DNA from: Pseudanabaena galeata CCNP1313
GTDB lineage: Bacteria; Cyanobacteriota; Cyanobacteriia; Pseudanabaenales; Pseudanabaenaceae
Length of the DNA stretch: 64,000 nucleotides
Direction: 5' to 3'
NCBI RefSeq assembly: GCF_029910235.1
Contig: NZ_CP112874.1
Location: 682,001-746,000 of the forward strand
Part shown: positions 44,445 through 63,156 of the stretch, one piece after another
How the letters are laid out: each line of letters opens with the position of its first letter
Numbering within the stretch: the first letter of the stretch is position 1
Made by a program: the position numbers and the translations under genes
The notes under the pieces: generated by a model
What the model saw: only the letters and a program-made list of their open reading frames with translations
The model's database searches: none
What the model was told of the DNA's origin: nothing

Positions 44445-44816
44445 TTATAAGTTTCTCAAATAGTCTCCAAGAAATTGAATTTGATTAACCATATCTTCAG
44501 CTCTTCTAGAAGATATGATTTTCATCAAACCCCTCAAATAATCACCTATAGAATACTGCTGTTGGGTAATCAGAATAATTCCTGAATGGACTTCATTTGT
44601 CTCCATAAACTGAATATGCAACTGCACGAAATCAGCAATATTAGCAGTGCAAATTGTGCGACTTTCATGAGTTGCCCATCTAAGTTGAGCCTCATCGCTA
44701 AATCCCTCACGGTTTTCTTCCAAGACAGTAGTGACATCAATTCCACGACTTCGCAAAGCATTAACCAAAGAATGAGCCATCATGTCTTCATCCATATAAA
44801 GCCTGATTTTGGTCAC
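44445..44816 (-). CDS. DUF5615 PIN-like protein
   Basis: 123 residues. The opening KIRLYMDEDMMAHSLVNALR and the internal TICTANIADFVQLHIQF match the DUF5615/Mut7-C-like PIN fold, where the DED and late acidic residues would form the nuclease site. The start is GTG at 44816, overlapping the DUF433 stop as GTGA. The family is the usual partner of DUF433 in predicted toxin-antitoxin pairs. Nuclease activity is inferred from the family. Confidence 0.82.
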   Translation of the reverse strand: MTKIRLYMDEDMMAHSLVNALRSRGIDVTTVLEENREGFSDEAQLRWATHESRTICTANIADFVQLHIQFMETNEVHSGIILITQQQYSIGDYLRGLMKIISSRRAEDMVNQIQFLGDYLRNL

Positions 44817-45115
44817 GCATCAACCTCTTGCTTTTGAGAAAAGACTTTTCGATAGTTTTCGTAATCCATCAAATCTTTAGCTAAAGATGCATCAATCTCT
44901 GCTTTATTTGCATGATAGTAAGCCAGAGCCGCATAAATTTGCTCTAATTTCAAATGGGGATACTCATCCTGAATTTGTTCTGCATTCAAACCCTGTTGCC
45001 ACAAAGTTGCTATCCGCCCAACAGTCATACGAGTTCTTGCAATACGAGGGCGATTGCCACAAATATCAGGAGAGCAAACAATAAGTGTACCAATATCAAC
45101 AATAGTTAATGTCAT
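44813..45115 (-). CDS. DUF433 protein (antitoxin-like partner of DUF5615)
   Basis: 100 residues. The core DUF433 pattern (CGNRPRIARTRMTVGRIATL, AEQIQDEYPHLKLEQIYAAL, AYYHANKAEID) is a winged-helix-like DNA-binding fold. It overlaps both neighbours by 4 bases (ATGA/GTGA), so translation is coupled. A second DUF433-DUF5615 pair lies at 55379-55932. The antitoxin role is inferred from family pairing. Confidence 0.83.
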   Translation of the reverse strand: MTLTIVDIGTLIVCSPDICGNRPRIARTRMTVGRIATLWQQGLNAEQIQDEYPHLKLEQIYAALAYYHANKAEIDASLAKDLMDYENYRKVFSQKQEVDA

Positions 45116-52400: not shown

Positions 52401-52920
52401 AAGGAAAAAGTAGAAAGTAAAAAGTAAAAATTTCAATCTGTTTTTCACTTTTCACTTTTGCCTTTTGCCTTGACAATCGTTGCTCCTAGGATTCGGGTGA
52501 TTTCTTGGGCTTCTTGGGCGATTGGTGTGAGGCGGCTTTCGGGGAGAATTTCGGTGGCGGCGAGAAGTTTTAGCCAGTAGAGGGTTTCTCTTGCTTCTTT
52601 GAGCGCGATGTAATTTTTGTTAATAAAGTCGGCTTTACTTTGTCCTGCCTGTCCTTCTTGGACATTTGCACCAATGGATGTTCCAGATCGCAGTAGTTGT
52701 TTGCCGATTGTTCGCGCCACGCCGCCTGATTCTTCGAGATGTTGGCAAAGTTTGACAATTCTTACGGCGAATTGGAAGGTGCGATCGGGAATGCTTTGCA
52801 TTTCAAGGAAAAGAGGAAAAGTAAAAAGTAAAAATTTCTTTTGATATTAACGAATAACATTGCAAAAAAACAAATCTATCTGCATCTTATTTTTTCCTTT
52901 TTCCTTTCTACTTTTTCCTT
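52401..52920. mobile_element. Inverted-repeat-bounded cassette carrying a four-helix-bundle gene
   Basis: AAGGAAAAAGTAGAAAG at 52401-52417 faces its exact complement at 52904-52920. A 21-bp direct repeat (core AAAGTAAAAAGTAAAAATTT) lies just inside at 52414-52434 and 52818-52838. The only gene inside is the four-helix-bundle protein. The arrangement looks like a small mobile cassette. Confidence 0.6.
52445..52801 (-). CDS. Four-helix-bundle protein (23S rRNA intervening-sequence/S23 family)
   Basis: 118 residues. The pattern FQFAVRIVKLCQHLEES, IGKQLLRSGTSIGANVQEGQ, AGQSKADFINKNYIALKEAR, ETLYWLKLL is the S23/IVP family, made of four helices and forming a pentamer in known structures. Members are encoded in intervening sequences of 23S rRNA or free-standing in cyanobacteria. 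The family also includes the Avd accessory protein of diversity-generating retroelements, but no reverse transcriptase is in this window. Ends in a basic tail (KAKGKSEK). Confidence 0.85.
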   Translation of the reverse strand: MQSIPDRTFQFAVRIVKLCQHLEESGGVARTIGKQLLRSGTSIGANVQEGQAGQSKADFINKNYIALKEARETLYWLKLLAATEILPESRLTPIAQEAQEITRILGATIVKAKGKSEK

Positions 52921-52947
52921 GATATAGAAGTGTGAAACTTTTATGTC

Positions 52948-55287
52948 TTACACTTCACAAGTCTCGATACGAGAAAAGATACTCCTACATTCCCACCCAT
53001 TTCTCGACAACTCCAAACCCAAATATGGGAGGTGCCCCTTTACATACATAAAATTATTCTCAAAAAATGGTTCGGGATAGAGCACATATTTACCATCTTT
53101 TTTCCATGCAGTTTGATCGCAAAATTTATCCCAAGTCTTAGAACTCGGATTACTAAAATCTAGCTTACCACCACACTCTACATAAATTTGCTTCTGGACG
53201 CTAAAGCCATACAGCCCATTGCTAAGTTTTCCCCATAGATTATCAATCGCCAATAACTCATCACAGGGGAACTCTTTTATATCTTTTGTGCTAAATCTTT
53301 GTCCAACATCTTTGCCCACCGCCGTAATCATCAATCTATAGGTTTCTTGATCCGCCTCGTACCATTGCTTTGCTGTCAGGTAATCTTCTAGCTGTTGATA
53401 GCGTGAAGTTTTGACGTATTCTTTTAAACCATCTAAAGCTTTGCGCTCAGATGATGACAAATTTAGTCTCTTATCGGATTGTTGATAGATCAGATAGGCT
53501 AAATCGACCTGATGACGGTTTAGCGCCTTTTGGATGAGCTTAGTCGGATTGACTAAACTCGCATAAAACAAAATCATATCTTTCCAAGCACTCAATCCCA
53601 AATGCTCATAGAGCAAGCTTTCTTGCTGCAATTTCAAGACTTCCATCGCCGCTAAAAATTCCTGAAAGCTCAGATGCGAAAATTGATAGATACCTCCATC
53701 TCTTTCCACTAATAACTCACTTACCTGCACCATCTGCCCTAAAAATTCTTTTGCATCCACATCAGGATCGATCTTTACCAAAGACTCATTCAGCAGTTTC
53801 AATAACTGATCGACTTTAATTTGCTTAAATCCTTCCTCTTCACCATCGTCAATACTTTTTGCCGCCTCCATCATCATTGCCAACGCCACAACTTGCAGCA
53901 CCTCCTGACGCTGATTGATTGACTTAAATAACAAGGGAATACCCCTAGCACTGGCTCTCCGTCCTAATTGCAACTCACAAATATCTTGATATAGCTCTAC
54001 TTTGCGCTGTGGCAACTCCGCCCCCTGCTTATTCTCCCGATGAAACCGCGCCATCATGTTTAATAGCAACACATTCCCAGCAATATCATTCAACTCAGGA
54101 CGCGACTGAATTTGTTCCAATAGAGACTCCGCCCTTTCCTTCGCCTTAGCCTCCACATCAGGAGTACTTCGCCCACCCCTCGCATAACGCTCTTGGCAAA
54201 AATACCACTGCTCCACAAACTGTTTGCGCTGTTCCTGATTAAAATCTTGAATCCAAAAACTCGCCGTTGGTTTCCTTGCTACATAGTCTTCCCGATAAGC
54301 CGTTGGGCGCGAAGTCACAATAAAAACTGCCTCATGATATTTCTGCATCTCCCCACTCAGCCACTCACTCACCTTTGTCCTCTCCGCAGGCGGTACTTCA
54401 TCAAATCCATCAAACATCACCAAAGCATCACCTTTTCGCAGCAAATTGAGTGCCCAATTCGGTGGAACTGTTTCTAATTCTTTAATCTTGGATAACCGTC
54501 CAATATGAAAAGTGGTCAACAATTCAAGTAAATCTGGCGGATTCTCTTTGGTGATCTCTTTCCAGCATCCTGATAGATAGAGCAGAAATGGCACAAACTT
54601 AGGAACCTTATATCTACGAAAATCTCCCTTGTTGTATTCACCAGTGCTGTAGATGTAAGTAAGATGCTTTAACAAAGTTGATTTGCCATAGCCGCCCCAA
54701 GCCCTAATCGCAATCTGACGCAAACGGTTATCCTGCTTCACCCTTTCCAGCAATTCCCAAATCTGCATCTGCGGACAATCTTCACCGCGATCTCGAAATT
54801 TCTGACCCGCCACAATGGAATCTGAAGATAATTCCAAAGGCACAAACACCTCACGCAACAAAGGATTATTCACGGGCAAATTTTCATTTTCCCTCACTCC
54901 CACCGCATAATCTTCATAACAGTCCCACATCTGACATTTGAGATATTTCGCATCAAATCCAAGTGCTTGCCAATTTAACTTTTTGGTCAAAAATTGATTA
55001 GCTTGATCTATATTTTCAACAAAACCTTCAGCATCTTTCTTCCCACGCTCAGCATATATCTCACTCAAGCGCTCAATAAAATGCTTGCTATAGGCAGCCC
55101 AAACGCCCGAAACGGCTGTCACAGGAAACAGCATCAAAGCTGTTGCCCATTCTTGCTTTAGCAAAAAGCCGCCAAATGCAACACTTGTCCCACCCAAAGG
55201 CGACCATCGCGCAATTGCAGCAAGTGATCGCTGTACAAATCTCTTTTCAGGACTAGAGTTAGAATGCTTTTCTGGTTCTTGAGTCAT
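52948..55287 (-). CDS. NACHT NTPase with C-terminal GUN4 domain
   Basis: 779 residues. Hydrophobic stretches at about 31-66 suggest an N-terminal membrane hairpin. The NACHT/STAND ATPase has Walker A IRAWGGYGKSTLLKHL (196-203 core), Walker B ALVMFDGFDEVP (288-299) and sensor IVTSRPTAY. A helical region leads to residues 629-779, which match GUN4: QLEDYLTAKQWYEADQETYR, IKEFPCDELLAIDNLW, LSNGLYGFSVQKQIYVECGG, KGHLPYL and the last IFSRIETC. GUN4 binds Mg-porphyrins/bilins and activates Mg-chelatase. Fused to a STAND switch it may act as a tetrapyrrole-responsive trigger; that role is inference. Confidence 0.88.
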   Translation of the reverse strand: MTQEPEKHSNSSPEKRFVQRSLAAIARWSPLGGTSVAFGGFLLKQEWATALMLFPVTAVSGVWAAYSKHFIERLSEIYAERGKKDAEGFVENIDQANQFLTKKLNWQALGFDAKYLKCQMWDCYEDYAVGVRENENLPVNNPLLREVFVPLELSSDSIVAGQKFRDRGEDCPQMQIWELLERVKQDNRLRQIAIRAWGGYGKSTLLKHLTYIYSTGEYNKGDFRRYKVPKFVPFLLYLSGCWKEITKENPPDLLELLTTFHIGRLSKIKELETVPPNWALNLLRKGDALVMFDGFDEVPPAERTKVSEWLSGEMQKYHEAVFIVTSRPTAYREDYVARKPTASFWIQDFNQEQRKQFVEQWYFCQERYARGGRSTPDVEAKAKERAESLLEQIQSRPELNDIAGNVLLLNMMARFHRENKQGAELPQRKVELYQDICELQLGRRASARGIPLLFKSINQRQEVLQVVALAMMMEAAKSIDDGEEEGFKQIKVDQLLKLLNESLVKIDPDVDAKEFLGQMVQVSELLVERDGGIYQFSHLSFQEFLAAMEVLKLQQESLLYEHLGLSAWKDMILFYASLVNPTKLIQKALNRHQVDLAYLIYQQSDKRLNLSSSERKALDGLKEYVKTSRYQQLEDYLTAKQWYEADQETYRLMITAVGKDVGQRFSTKDIKEFPCDELLAIDNLWGKLSNGLYGFSVQKQIYVECGGKLDFSNPSSKTWDKFCDQTAWKKDGKYVLYPEPFFENNFMYVKGHLPYLGLELSRNGWECRSIFSRIETCEV

Positions 55288-55378: not shown

Positions 55379-55603
55379 ATGAACTATCGCGATCGCATCA
55401 CCATTGAATCAGGAAAACGCAGTGGCAAACCCTGTATTAGAGGAATGCGAATTACCGTTTATGACGTTCTGTCTTATCTTGCCTCTGGTATGACCTATCA
55501 AGAAGTTCTTGAAGACTTCCCCTACCTCACTCAAGAAGATATCTTTGCCTGTCTAAGCTATGCCGCTGACCGTGAACAACAAACGCTCCTGATTCAAGCA
55601 TGA
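55379..55603 (+). CDS. DUF433 protein, second copy
   Basis: 74 residues. The core DUF433 pattern is RITIESGKRSGKPCIRGMRI, then TVYDVLSYLASGMTYQEVLE and DFPYLTQEDIFACLSYAADR. It is shorter and closer to the consensus than the copy at 44813. The stop overlaps the DUF5615 start by 4 bases. It is divergent from the NACHT-GUN4 gene, with 91 bases between starts. Confidence 0.9.
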   Translation: MNYRDRITIESGKRSGKPCIRGMRITVYDVLSYLASGMTYQEVLEDFPYLTQEDIFACLSYAADREQQTLLIQA

Positions 55604-55932
55604 AGCTACTATTCGATCACAACCTTTCGCCAAAATTGATTTATCGCTTAGCAGAATTATTTCCTAATTCCAATCATGTTTTTCAATTAGGATTAGATCA
55701 AGTGGAAGATCGGCAAGTGTGGCAATACGCAAAAGCAAACGGTTTTACAATTGTCACAAAAGACAGTGATTACAATGAGTTGCTAATTTTGTTGGATTTT
55801 CCGCCAAAAATAATTTGGATTCGGCGTGGCAATTGCTCAACCAATGAAATTGAGAATATTTTGAGAATGCACTATCTCGATATTCAAGATCTAATCAACA
55901 CGGAATCTCTAGGACTGTTGACCCTGTACTAG
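55600..55932 (+). CDS. DUF5615 PIN-like protein, second copy
   Basis: 110 residues. The opening MKLLFDHNLSPKLIYRLAEL, FTIVTKDSDYNELLIL and IIWIRRGNCSTNEIENIL are the DUF5615 signature, with FDHN, KDSD and RRGN carrying the presumed PIN acidic/polar residues. With DUF433 it forms a predicted type II toxin-antitoxin-like pair. The DDH-type residues look intact, so it may be active. Confidence 0.9.
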   Translation: MKLLFDHNLSPKLIYRLAELFPNSNHVFQLGLDQVEDRQVWQYAKANGFTIVTKDSDYNELLILLDFPPKIIWIRRGNCSTNEIENILRMHYLDIQDLINTESLGLLTLY

Positions 55933-61233: not shown

Positions 61234-63156
61234 ATGGGGCGATATGCGCTGCTAATTGGCATCAGTAATTACAATGCGGGTTTGAATCCTTTGCCCAGTG
61301 CGGTGAAGGATGTGGATGCTTTGCAGGAAGTTTTGCTAAATGCGGAGATTGGTGGCTTTGCGGATGGGAATGTGACGGTTTTGAAGGATGCGGAGAAGGG
61401 GGCGATCGAGACGGCGATCTATCATTTGTTTGCTAATCGCAAGCCCGATGACCTATTGCTATTTTATTTTTCAGGTCATGGGGTGACTGATGATCGCCGT
61501 GATTTTTATTTCACTGGGCTTTCGACAAGTAGGGAGGCTTTGCCGCCCACTGCGGTTTCTTCGTCCTATGTGCAGTCGCAAATGTATAACAGTAGGTCAA
61601 AGCGTCAGGTGGCGATTTTGGATTGTTGTCATAGTGGGGCATTTCCGAAGGGGATGATGGCGAAGGATGTCGGTACGGTGGATATTAAGTTGGGTGGGGA
61701 GGGTCAGGCGATTTTGACGGCGGCTGATTCGAGTCAATATGCCTTTGAGCAGGAGGGGTTTGAGTTGTCGCTTTATACGCATTTCTTGGTGGAGGGGCTG
61801 AAGACGGGGGCGGCGGATCGTGATGAGGATGGGGATGTGTCGGTGGATGAGTTGCATCTCTATGTGGAGGGGAAGGTTAAGAGTGTTAATAACAGTATGT
61901 CGCCGAAGTTTTTTGGGCAAAAGGAGGGGCATCGGATTGTGTTGGCAAGGGCGGCGCAGGATGATCCTAAGTTGAGGTTTCGGAAGGAGGTTGAGAAGTT
62001 TGTTAAGCGGAGTAATGGCAGGATTTCTGTTATTGCTAAGAATTTATTACGTGGAAAAAGTCGAGAGCTACAAATTGCTTCATTAGAGGCTGAAGAAATT
62101 ATTAATCAGGTTTTGCTTCCCTATGTCGAATATGCTAAAAAAATTGAAGAGTATGAAACTACATTAATAGAAATGATTGCAGAAGAGTTTCCTTTTAGCG
62201 AAATTACGCAGGAAGAATTACGAGAATATGAAAATCATTTAGGATTGAGAGAAGAAGATATAGACGCAATTGTCCCTCGAATTATTAAGCCAAAACTAGA
62301 TGAATACGAACGAAATTTGCGAGTTAAAGAAGTACAAGTAAGAGAATCACAAAAACAAGAATTGCAGCAAGAAAGACTTGATTTAGGCAATGGGGTAAAT
62401 CTCGATTTGGTGAGGATTCCTGCGGGGGGATTTATGATGGGAATGCCAGCATCGGAGCGCAAAATTGCTCTTGAGAATGCCAAGAAATATAATTGGACTG
62501 GGTTAGAAGAATATTTGGATTGGTCAACGCCCCAACATGAAGTAAAAGTTCCTGCTTTTTTATTGGGGAAATATGCTGTAACCAATGCTCAGTGGAAAGC
62601 CATAATGGGAACAAAGCCTTCGGAAAGTTCTGATGTTAAGTTTCAAGGCGAAAACCAACCAGTAATCAAAGTTTCGTGGGATGATGCTAAGGAGTTTTGT
62701 AAAAAGCTGTCTGAGAAAATAAAAAAGAATGTCAGGTTGCCTAGCGAAGCAGAATGGGAGTATGCTTGTCGCGCTGGAACCACTACCGCCTTTCATTTTG
62801 GAGAAACCATTACCCCCGAACTTGTCAACTATGACGGTAATTATCCATACGGTGATGCACCAAAGGGAGAATATCGCGAAAAGACAGTTGATGTGCAGAG
62901 TTTTAGCCCGAATGCATGGGGCTTATATCAAATGCATGGCAATGTTTGGGAATGGTGCGAAGATATATGGCATGAAAACTATAACGGTGCGCCCACTGAT
63001 GGCTCTGTATGGCTAACTGGCGGCGAACAAAATAAACGCGCTCTGCGGGGTGGCTCGTGGGACGGCAATGCTTTCATTTGTCGTTCAGCGTATCGCAGCG
63101 GGGTCAATGCGGACTATAGCGACTTCAATATCGGTTTTCGGGTTGTTGTTGCTTGA
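61234..63156 (+). CDS. Caspase-like protease with EF-hand and C-terminal FGE-sulfatase domain
   Basis: 640 residues. The caspase p20 region spans 1 to about 240: His82 in FYFSGHGV and Cys132 in [10 protein letters not shown] are the expected dyad, so it is probably active as an Arg/Lys-type orthocaspase. Inside is a full 12-residue EF-hand loop, D195[11 protein letters not shown]. Residues 245-385 are helical/coiled-coil. Residues 388-640 are an FGE/SUMF1 fold: [61 protein letters not shown] and [20 protein letters not shown]. The catalytic FGE Cys pair is not evident, so this domain may bind ligands. Confidence 0.93.

Follow-up and report, generated by a model that had tools for sequence, protein, structure and literature searches.

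We analysed a 64,000-nucleotide stretch of DNA from the cyanobacterium Pseudanabaena galeata CCNP1313 (contig NZ_CP112874.1, positions 682,001 to 746,000), hereafter called the window. The gene of interest lies at 52948..55287 on the minus strand (open reading frame list and Pfam) and encodes a protein of 779 amino acids, followed by a stop codon. The initial annotation described it, with no strand stated, as a NACHT ATPase fused to a GUN4 domain, and both Pfam domains indeed score above their cut-offs; NACHT at residues 198-361 (54205..54696, minus strand; E 2.4e-12, 47.4 bits vs a cut-off of 26.7) and GUN4 (PF05419) at residues 627-757 (E 1.5e-29, 103.4 bits vs 29.2). A motif search found the Walker motifs intact, as had been claimed, with Walker A (GGYGKST) beginning at residue 198 and a Walker B-like sequence, DGFDE, at residue 293. 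The GUN4 domain through its GHLP motif (at residue 751) spans residues 627-754 (53026..53409, minus strand) and also matches GUN4 structures in the PDB. The match covers positions 5-126 of the 141 in the GUN4 profile, and the unmatched end is the site of the hypervariable feature described below. At the N-terminus, where a membrane hairpin had been proposed, a hydropathy scan does locate weak hydrophobic stretches (approximately residues 25-68; 55084..55215, minus strand), but the best 19-residue mean is only 1.47, leaving the hairpin plausible, not proven. Structure prediction of the protein with one relative gave a pLDDT of 33.9, too low for use.

Neither domain is rare in this genome, as GUN4 yields 8 rows in 7 reading frames and NACHT yields 20 rows, 16 of them above cut-off. 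The nearest relatives of the protein belong to the same genus, including one from Pseudanabaena sp. UWO311 (82% identical). The GUN4 domain occupies the usual sensor position of a NACHT/STAND switch, in agreement with the initial annotation, and similar N-terminal parts carry other C-termini in relatives; for example, open reading frames of 955-1199 amino acids match the window protein up to approximately residue 620 only.

The neighbouring genes also lie where they had been described, with a DUF433/DUF5615 pair (55379-55603 and 55600-55932) adjoining the gene and a caspase gene (61234-63156, plus strand) 5.9 kb away. The caspase is of the EACC1-associated type (NCBIfam, 167 bits vs a cut-off of 140) and is fused to an FGE-sulfatase domain. 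Neither the pair nor the caspase gene was a recurrent neighbour when we clustered the neighbours of 20 related loci plus the window. A further DUF433/DUF5615 pair is found in the window at 44445-45115 (minus strand). The next gene downstream (52445..52801, minus strand; Pfam) encodes a 23S rRNA intervening-sequence (four-helix) protein, and an Rfam scan of the window gave no match. PADLOC reported a match to PD-T4-6, which we rejected as evidence of defence; the model also matches the genome's own 229-aa GUN4 protein (L001) and matches kinase-GUN4 at full length, so the match in the window is explained by the model's GUN4 part.

When the ends of full-length relatives were aligned, everything past GHLP (the last 25 residues of the window protein) differed until one of three endings was reached; FSRIETCEV, LASRLVNCNL or FSHRDL. 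All three are frames of a single DNA sequence, approximately CTTCTCTCGCATCGAGACTTGTGAA, and hence it is the DNA that is conserved instead of any one protein frame. In the window, a motif scan places the conserved 25-nt motif (CTTTTCTCGTATCGAGACTTGTGAA) at 52954..52978 on the minus strand, read in the FSRIETCEV frame and with two mismatches to the consensus. Comparison across loci shows it to be preceded by a hypervariable junction of 47 nt (52979..53025, minus strand), which is G/T-rich and contains a single C. Across 54 loci, the FSRIETCEV-type frame was used 21 times, the LASRLVNCNL-type 17 times, the FSHRDL-type 14 times, and another ending twice. The genome's own 229-aa GUN4 protein reads LSNQLRGNKTMQAIFSHPAW at the same place, so, judging from these sequences, FSHRDL looks like the ancestral frame. 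In most loci, all three motif frames reach a stop within a few codons, which suits junctions of random length.

To gauge how widespread the motif is, we scanned 388 cyanobacterial genomes and found the 25-nt motif (allowing up to 3 mismatches) in 97 of them, at 147 places by row count and in 46 of 160 genera. The reversed motif, searched in the same way in the same genomes, gave no match. A 20-mer of the motif, with up to 2 mismatches, was found in 35 of 194 genomes, compared with a single match for its control, and an exact scan of viral contigs found none. A hairpin is predicted by folding to begin inside the motif end (52927..52956, minus strand; arms 52948-52956 and 52927-52935). In 11 loci from the genus of the window, 87.9% of the cells of this hairpin are paired vs at most 65.7% in slid versions, with two compensatory pairs that both come from one locus; in 18 other loci, the corresponding figures are 83.3% and at most 57.8%, with weak covariation (56 of 500 shuffles reach it). 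RNAalifold, run on 31 sequences, returned no supported consensus hairpin, and the mean folding z-score over 54 loci was -0.65, vs -0.41, -0.40 and -0.08 for control stretches. We therefore treat the predicted hairpin as a lead.

Two rounds of fetching (54 and 60 loci) yielded 114 distinct motif loci in total. The first round started from 59 scanned sources, of which five (L159, L166, L167, L169 and L171) had no motif within 5 mismatches and were dropped; the 54 retained include two short pieces (L141 and L158). Pfam identified GUN4 in 52 of these 54 proteins, NACHT in 27, caspase in 9, TIR_2 in 7 and kinase in 2. Among the 60 loci of the second round, 52 carry a GUN4 signature in the motif frame, 2 carry one but with the junction interrupted by a stop, and in 6 no signature was recognised. 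Most of the motif copies we examined thus mark the end of GUN4 genes that also encode NACHT, caspase, TIR or kinase parts. In four loci (L247, L258, L280 and L285), the motif is instead joined to non-GUN4 sequence, in L258 directly to a truncated kinase domain; these look like one-sided deletions that reach the fixed edge of the motif.

Plasmids add a few further cases. GUN4 relatives occur in 32 records of the plasmid collection, and among the 10 records inspected, two tails resemble the variable kind (L215 from Calothrix sp. NIES-4105 and L216 from Nostoc sp. CENA543). Near-identical plasmid strains have identical GUN4 ends, but their tails are of another kind and hence uninformative on turnover, while one Stanieria pair differs somewhere within the 1.4 kb compared. 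Contigs end in or near L279, L275, and L135 with L180. In one genome (G130), two contig ends carry complementary, inverted-repeat-like ends, and an inserted element may split the locus; the other contig ends near loci could be owed to population variation.

For the analysis of the junctions, we excluded L157 and L170 from the first set, as they have no GHLP-like site (54 to 52 loci). From the second round, we left out six loci with no GUN4 signature in the motif frame (L247, L258, L279, L280, L283 and L285), two with a junction stop (L271 and L289) and two with no GHLP (L257 and L264). L216 was added, while L215 failed the motif threshold, giving 103 junctions. Measured from the GHLP codons to the motif, these range from 16 to 155 nt (median 54), and their lengths are spread evenly modulo 3 (35/32/36); both length and frame are random. 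Their right border is fixed at the motif, whereas the left border is looser. On the coding strand, their base composition is A.148, C.108, G.410 and T.335, with G exceeding C in 98 of 103 junctions, a strand bias. In comparison, across 52 loci, the 300 nt upstream of the junction have A.284, C.177, G.275 and T.263, and the 100 nt starting at the motif have A.273, C.228, G.175 and T.325. The borders are sharp. In the proteins, residue entropy is 0-1.3 bits across the GHLP columns and jumps to 3.5-3.9 bits over the next 12 positions.

The junctions are hypervariable even between close relatives. In 77 pairs the upstream flanks share at least 80% identity, and for 75 of these the junctions lie within 3.5 SD of base-shuffled sequence. 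Two loci from one genome, 2.6 kb apart (L259 and L260), have flanks that are 93% and 84% identical, but junctions that are 47% identical vs 49% after shuffling; for L250 and L260, the flanks are both 92% identical and the junctions 41% vs 40% shuffled. The exceptions are the window with L148 (z 3.7) and L255 with L261. The latter two, from different species, share an identical 63-nt junction between flanks of 98% identity and are the only alike pair among the 103 loci, demonstrating that junctions can pass unchanged between species. An earlier and broader comparison, of 158 pairs, gave a junction similarity slightly above that of shuffles (mean z 0.77, maximum 4.8), a mean that we put down to shared edges.

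We also searched for the origin of individual junctions. A search of its own genome for the window junction returned only the self-match, with no second copy at E <0.05. A dispersed repeat with CTATTTGGGTTTTGAGTTGTC, present at some 30 places in this genome (e.g. L308, L309 and L311), agrees with the 20 nt at the start of the window junction at 19/20 positions (E 0.05); as a weak lead, these 20 nt are possibly filler copied from the repeat. The junction of L163 (144 nt, the longest of the first set) codes for a segment similar, as judged by eye, to the STAND region of such proteins (EFAHSSFKEFFTAME), and a search of its genome found no source copy with E <0.3. Duplications of the left flank are found in L098 and L158, suggesting that copying occasionally takes place.

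The junctions contain fewer stops than their composition predicts. In the first set, the GUN4 frame is open through every one of the 52 junctions, vs 23.8 junctions expected after base shuffling and 29 in each of the other two frames, in a set that had been pre-selected for GUN4 and motif in one uninterrupted frame. The further loci provide a fairer figure; among these 60, a stop interrupts the junction in two (L271 and L289).

What lies beyond the motif was investigated by clustering the neighbours of the 20 related loci plus the window. In 8 loci, the motif adjoins a convergent gene for a Y1/IS200-like protein, a relative of the REP-associated tyrosine transposases (RAYTs). The other clusters (ABC-transporter in 5 loci and Clp-like in 3) lie at scattered distances. 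By tblastn, 27 of 54 loci have a RAYT match no more than 2.5 kb downstream of the motif, compared with 0/52 upstream of the gene and 0/49 further downstream. In the second round, 22 of 60 loci had a match within 1 kb downstream; the upstream control here covers chiefly the GUN4 gene itself and is a weaker one than in the first round. Combined, this gives 49 of 114 loci with a whole or partial RAYT; 43 of the 49 matches begin within 330 nt of the motif, 48 are convergent, and 23 align over at least 200 residues, the rest being shorter and often consisting of the C-terminal end alone. The remaining 65 of 114 loci, including that of the window, have no RAYT nearby.

The linkage also holds in the reciprocal direction, from RAYT to GUN4, and is stronger there. 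Among the loci fetched for this RAYT clade (62-100% identity to the query), 23 of 27 have a GUN4 match. The RAYT queries were drawn from seven of the loci, and some loci enter both the forward and the reciprocal count. All four exceptions are at the edge of a contig; in L180, L195 and L199 the element or one of its ends can still be seen, and in the last one the break falls within the gene. A different RAYT clade (46-48% identical, or 41-51% across its matched pieces) had no GUN4 match in the 3 loci inspected; members of this other clade (G159, G101; L202, L205) reach at least 10 matches per genome. The HUH motif MSNHxHYL is invariant in 21 RAYT proteins. The transposase matches Pfam Y1_Tnp (E 2e-18) and resembles NCBIfam REP_Tyr_transpos, with 68.3 bits, below its cut-off of 80. 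Junctions beside near-full-length RAYTs did not have a significantly higher G+T content (p = 0.076).

The copy in the window has no RAYT match within 2.5 kb downstream of its motif, and its genome contains one RAYT relative (26% identical to a 265-aa query) and six Pfam Y1_Tnp matches. Approximately 50 nt downstream of the motif, the sequence is replaced by one shared with a second genome (G020, L155), which has the same arrangement and likewise no RAYT match. Identity between the two is 82-100% in the first 120 nt past position 60 and at 240-480, and 80% at 120-240. Their upstream flanks are 78% identical, vs 49% for their junctions. As the RAYT is absent and the downstream part of the motif has been replaced, the window copy is probably frozen or served from elsewhere, and the gene is best seen as a receptor with a tip that was once diversified and may now be fixed.

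We propose that these tips arise by transposase-directed junctional diversification, and put the probability of this mechanism as a whole at roughly 0.55. GUN4 would be the C-terminal recognition part of cyanobacterial receptor-like proteins with NACHT, caspase, TIR or kinase parts in front, and the tip of the receptor would be rebuilt as a DNA junction instead of being inherited as ordinary protein sequence. The convergent RAYT-like HUH transposase downstream would recognise the 3' motif and its hairpin, nick single-stranded DNA at the 5' edge of the motif and retain the motif end. The free 3' end past the GHLP codons would then be eroded (in L258 into the kinase), extended, presumably by a polymerase, with mostly untemplated G/T-rich nucleotides and now and then copied pieces, and rejoined to the motif. 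The G/T richness of the coding strand fits extension of this 3' end. As the motif can be read in three frames and is short in each, any junction length would yield a complete protein, and the outcome would be a repertoire of differing receptor tips. More tentatively, the system might be a bacterial counterpart of antigen-receptor junctional diversity, in which a domesticated HUH transposase and untemplated addition would provide cyanobacterial populations with clonally differing tips, acting through NACHT, caspase, TIR or kinase effectors on phages or rivals; this possible role in defence is a less secure proposal than the mechanism itself.

The same junctions might instead be the scars of a selfish element. 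Here, RAYT and motif would occupy the 3' ends of GUN4 genes to their own advantage, with the variable stretch as a remnant of repair that is useless to the receptor. RAYTs that are often partial or absent while the motif persists would be expected of such an element, as would motifs joined to non-GUN4 sequence in L247, L258, L280 and L285. However, a useless scar sits poorly with the excess of open reading frames, with a motif that is stable across 46 of 160 genera and mostly ends GUN4 receptors, and with N-terminal parts that are repeatedly immune-like. On balance, we find this explanation doubtful.

Fast neutral drift of an unstructured tail, by slippage in the G/T-rich end under relaxed selection, seems improbable. 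The left-flank duplications in L098 and L158 and the position of the segment at the end of the protein could be read this way, but drift would hardly produce sharp borders, a strictly conserved motif immediately behind them and lengths that are uniform modulo 3. It also accounts neither for the lack of residual similarity between junctions whose flanks are 92-93% identical nor for the link to one RAYT clade.

We consider it similarly improbable that GUN4 acts here as a conserved porphyrin or bilin sensor that switches the NACHT ATPase, as the initial annotation had proposed. The domain is homologous to solved porphyrin- and bilin-binding proteins. Positions in the porphyrin-binding pocket include W192 in Synechocystis (an aromatic position, with a porphyrin-binding variant) and R211 in Arabidopsis (PMC8967248). 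The aromatic position is kept as Tyr737 in the window protein by alignment. From sequence comparison, the arginine position appears to correspond to an Arg six residues past GHLP in the genome's own 229-aa GUN4 protein. In the window protein, ungapped counting places it at Leu760, inside the hypervariable segment, which is unlike between close relatives. Only 6 of 103 variable proteins have Arg at this position, no excess over the 6.2% Arg across the whole segment. A conserved tetrapyrrole sensor is therefore unlikely for this receptor family, while some individual tips could bind pigments.

Diversity-generating retroelements (DGRs), in which the junctions would be mutated template-repeat copies written by a reverse transcriptase, are common in cyanobacteria, diversify the C-termini of signalling proteins and have GUN4-like listed among the other domains of their variable proteins (PMC7517822), but can be rejected as very improbable here given lengths of 16-155 nt in all three frames (unlike same-length, A-directed rewriting), no template copy in the two genomes searched (the window's own and that of L163) and no reverse transcriptase among the recurrent neighbours of the 20 loci plus the window, although reverse transcriptases do occur elsewhere in the window's genome.

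A fusion of GUN4 to signalling parts is by itself of a known kind and already in print. Fusions to kinases, caspases, trypsin or TIR have been described and proposed as tetrapyrrole sensors (PMC7159879), a metacaspase-GUN4 fusion has been published (PMC2853523), and GUN4 is present in TRADD-N proteins (PMC8195603). The receptors studied here resemble these cyanobacterial fusions and NTP-dependent conflict systems in joining GUN4 to signalling parts (PMC7159879, PMC8195603), but differ from the GUN4 fusions in the accessible parts of both papers in their hypervariable tail and RAYT link. We found neither a RAYT-GUN4 link nor a hypervariable GUN4 tail in the accessible parts of the open-access literature, with preprints outside its scope. 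What appears to be new is the proposed diversification system, consisting of the hypervariable GUN4 tail and the RAYT link.

The transposase shares with RAYT/REP systems (TnpA-REP, IS200/IS605-related HUH enzymes) its Y1_Tnp fold and its invariant HxH. A hairpin predicted near the gene, good in the genus of the window and weaker in other loci, may be a further likeness; RAYTs have been linked to hairpins with a guide tetranucleotide (PMC6006769), and a GT[AG]G foot has been reported. Unlike these, it adjoins one receptor family at a fixed variable junction and scores 68.3 bits with REP_Tyr_transpos, short of the required 80. A second comparison is with DGRs, through which targeted protein hypervariation in bacteria is mainly known and which rewrite adenines from a template. 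As with DGRs, the hypervariation is targeted to the C-termini of cyanobacterial signalling or conflict proteins, with fixed DNA at the 3' border. In contrast to DGRs, there is an HUH transposase nearby, the length and frame vary, the bias is towards G/T, and no template was found in the two genomes searched. If our proposal is true, this would be a second, template-free cyanobacterial route, in which a transposase-type nuclease and random addition remake the tips of immune-like receptors.

A third likeness is to the N-regions of vertebrate V(D)J recombination, where G-rich inserts of random length mark a fixed receptor join that a transposase-derived enzyme has cut. Here too, random-length, G-rich inserts lie at a fixed join in a receptor, and the cutting would be of a transposase type. 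Unlike V(D)J recombination, the system is bacterial, involves an HUH enzyme instead of RAG, and has one fixed 3' site and no segments; any clonal repertoire is putative. If true, the proposed mechanism would provide a parallel to vertebrate junctional diversity, as well as a use for a clade of RAYTs.
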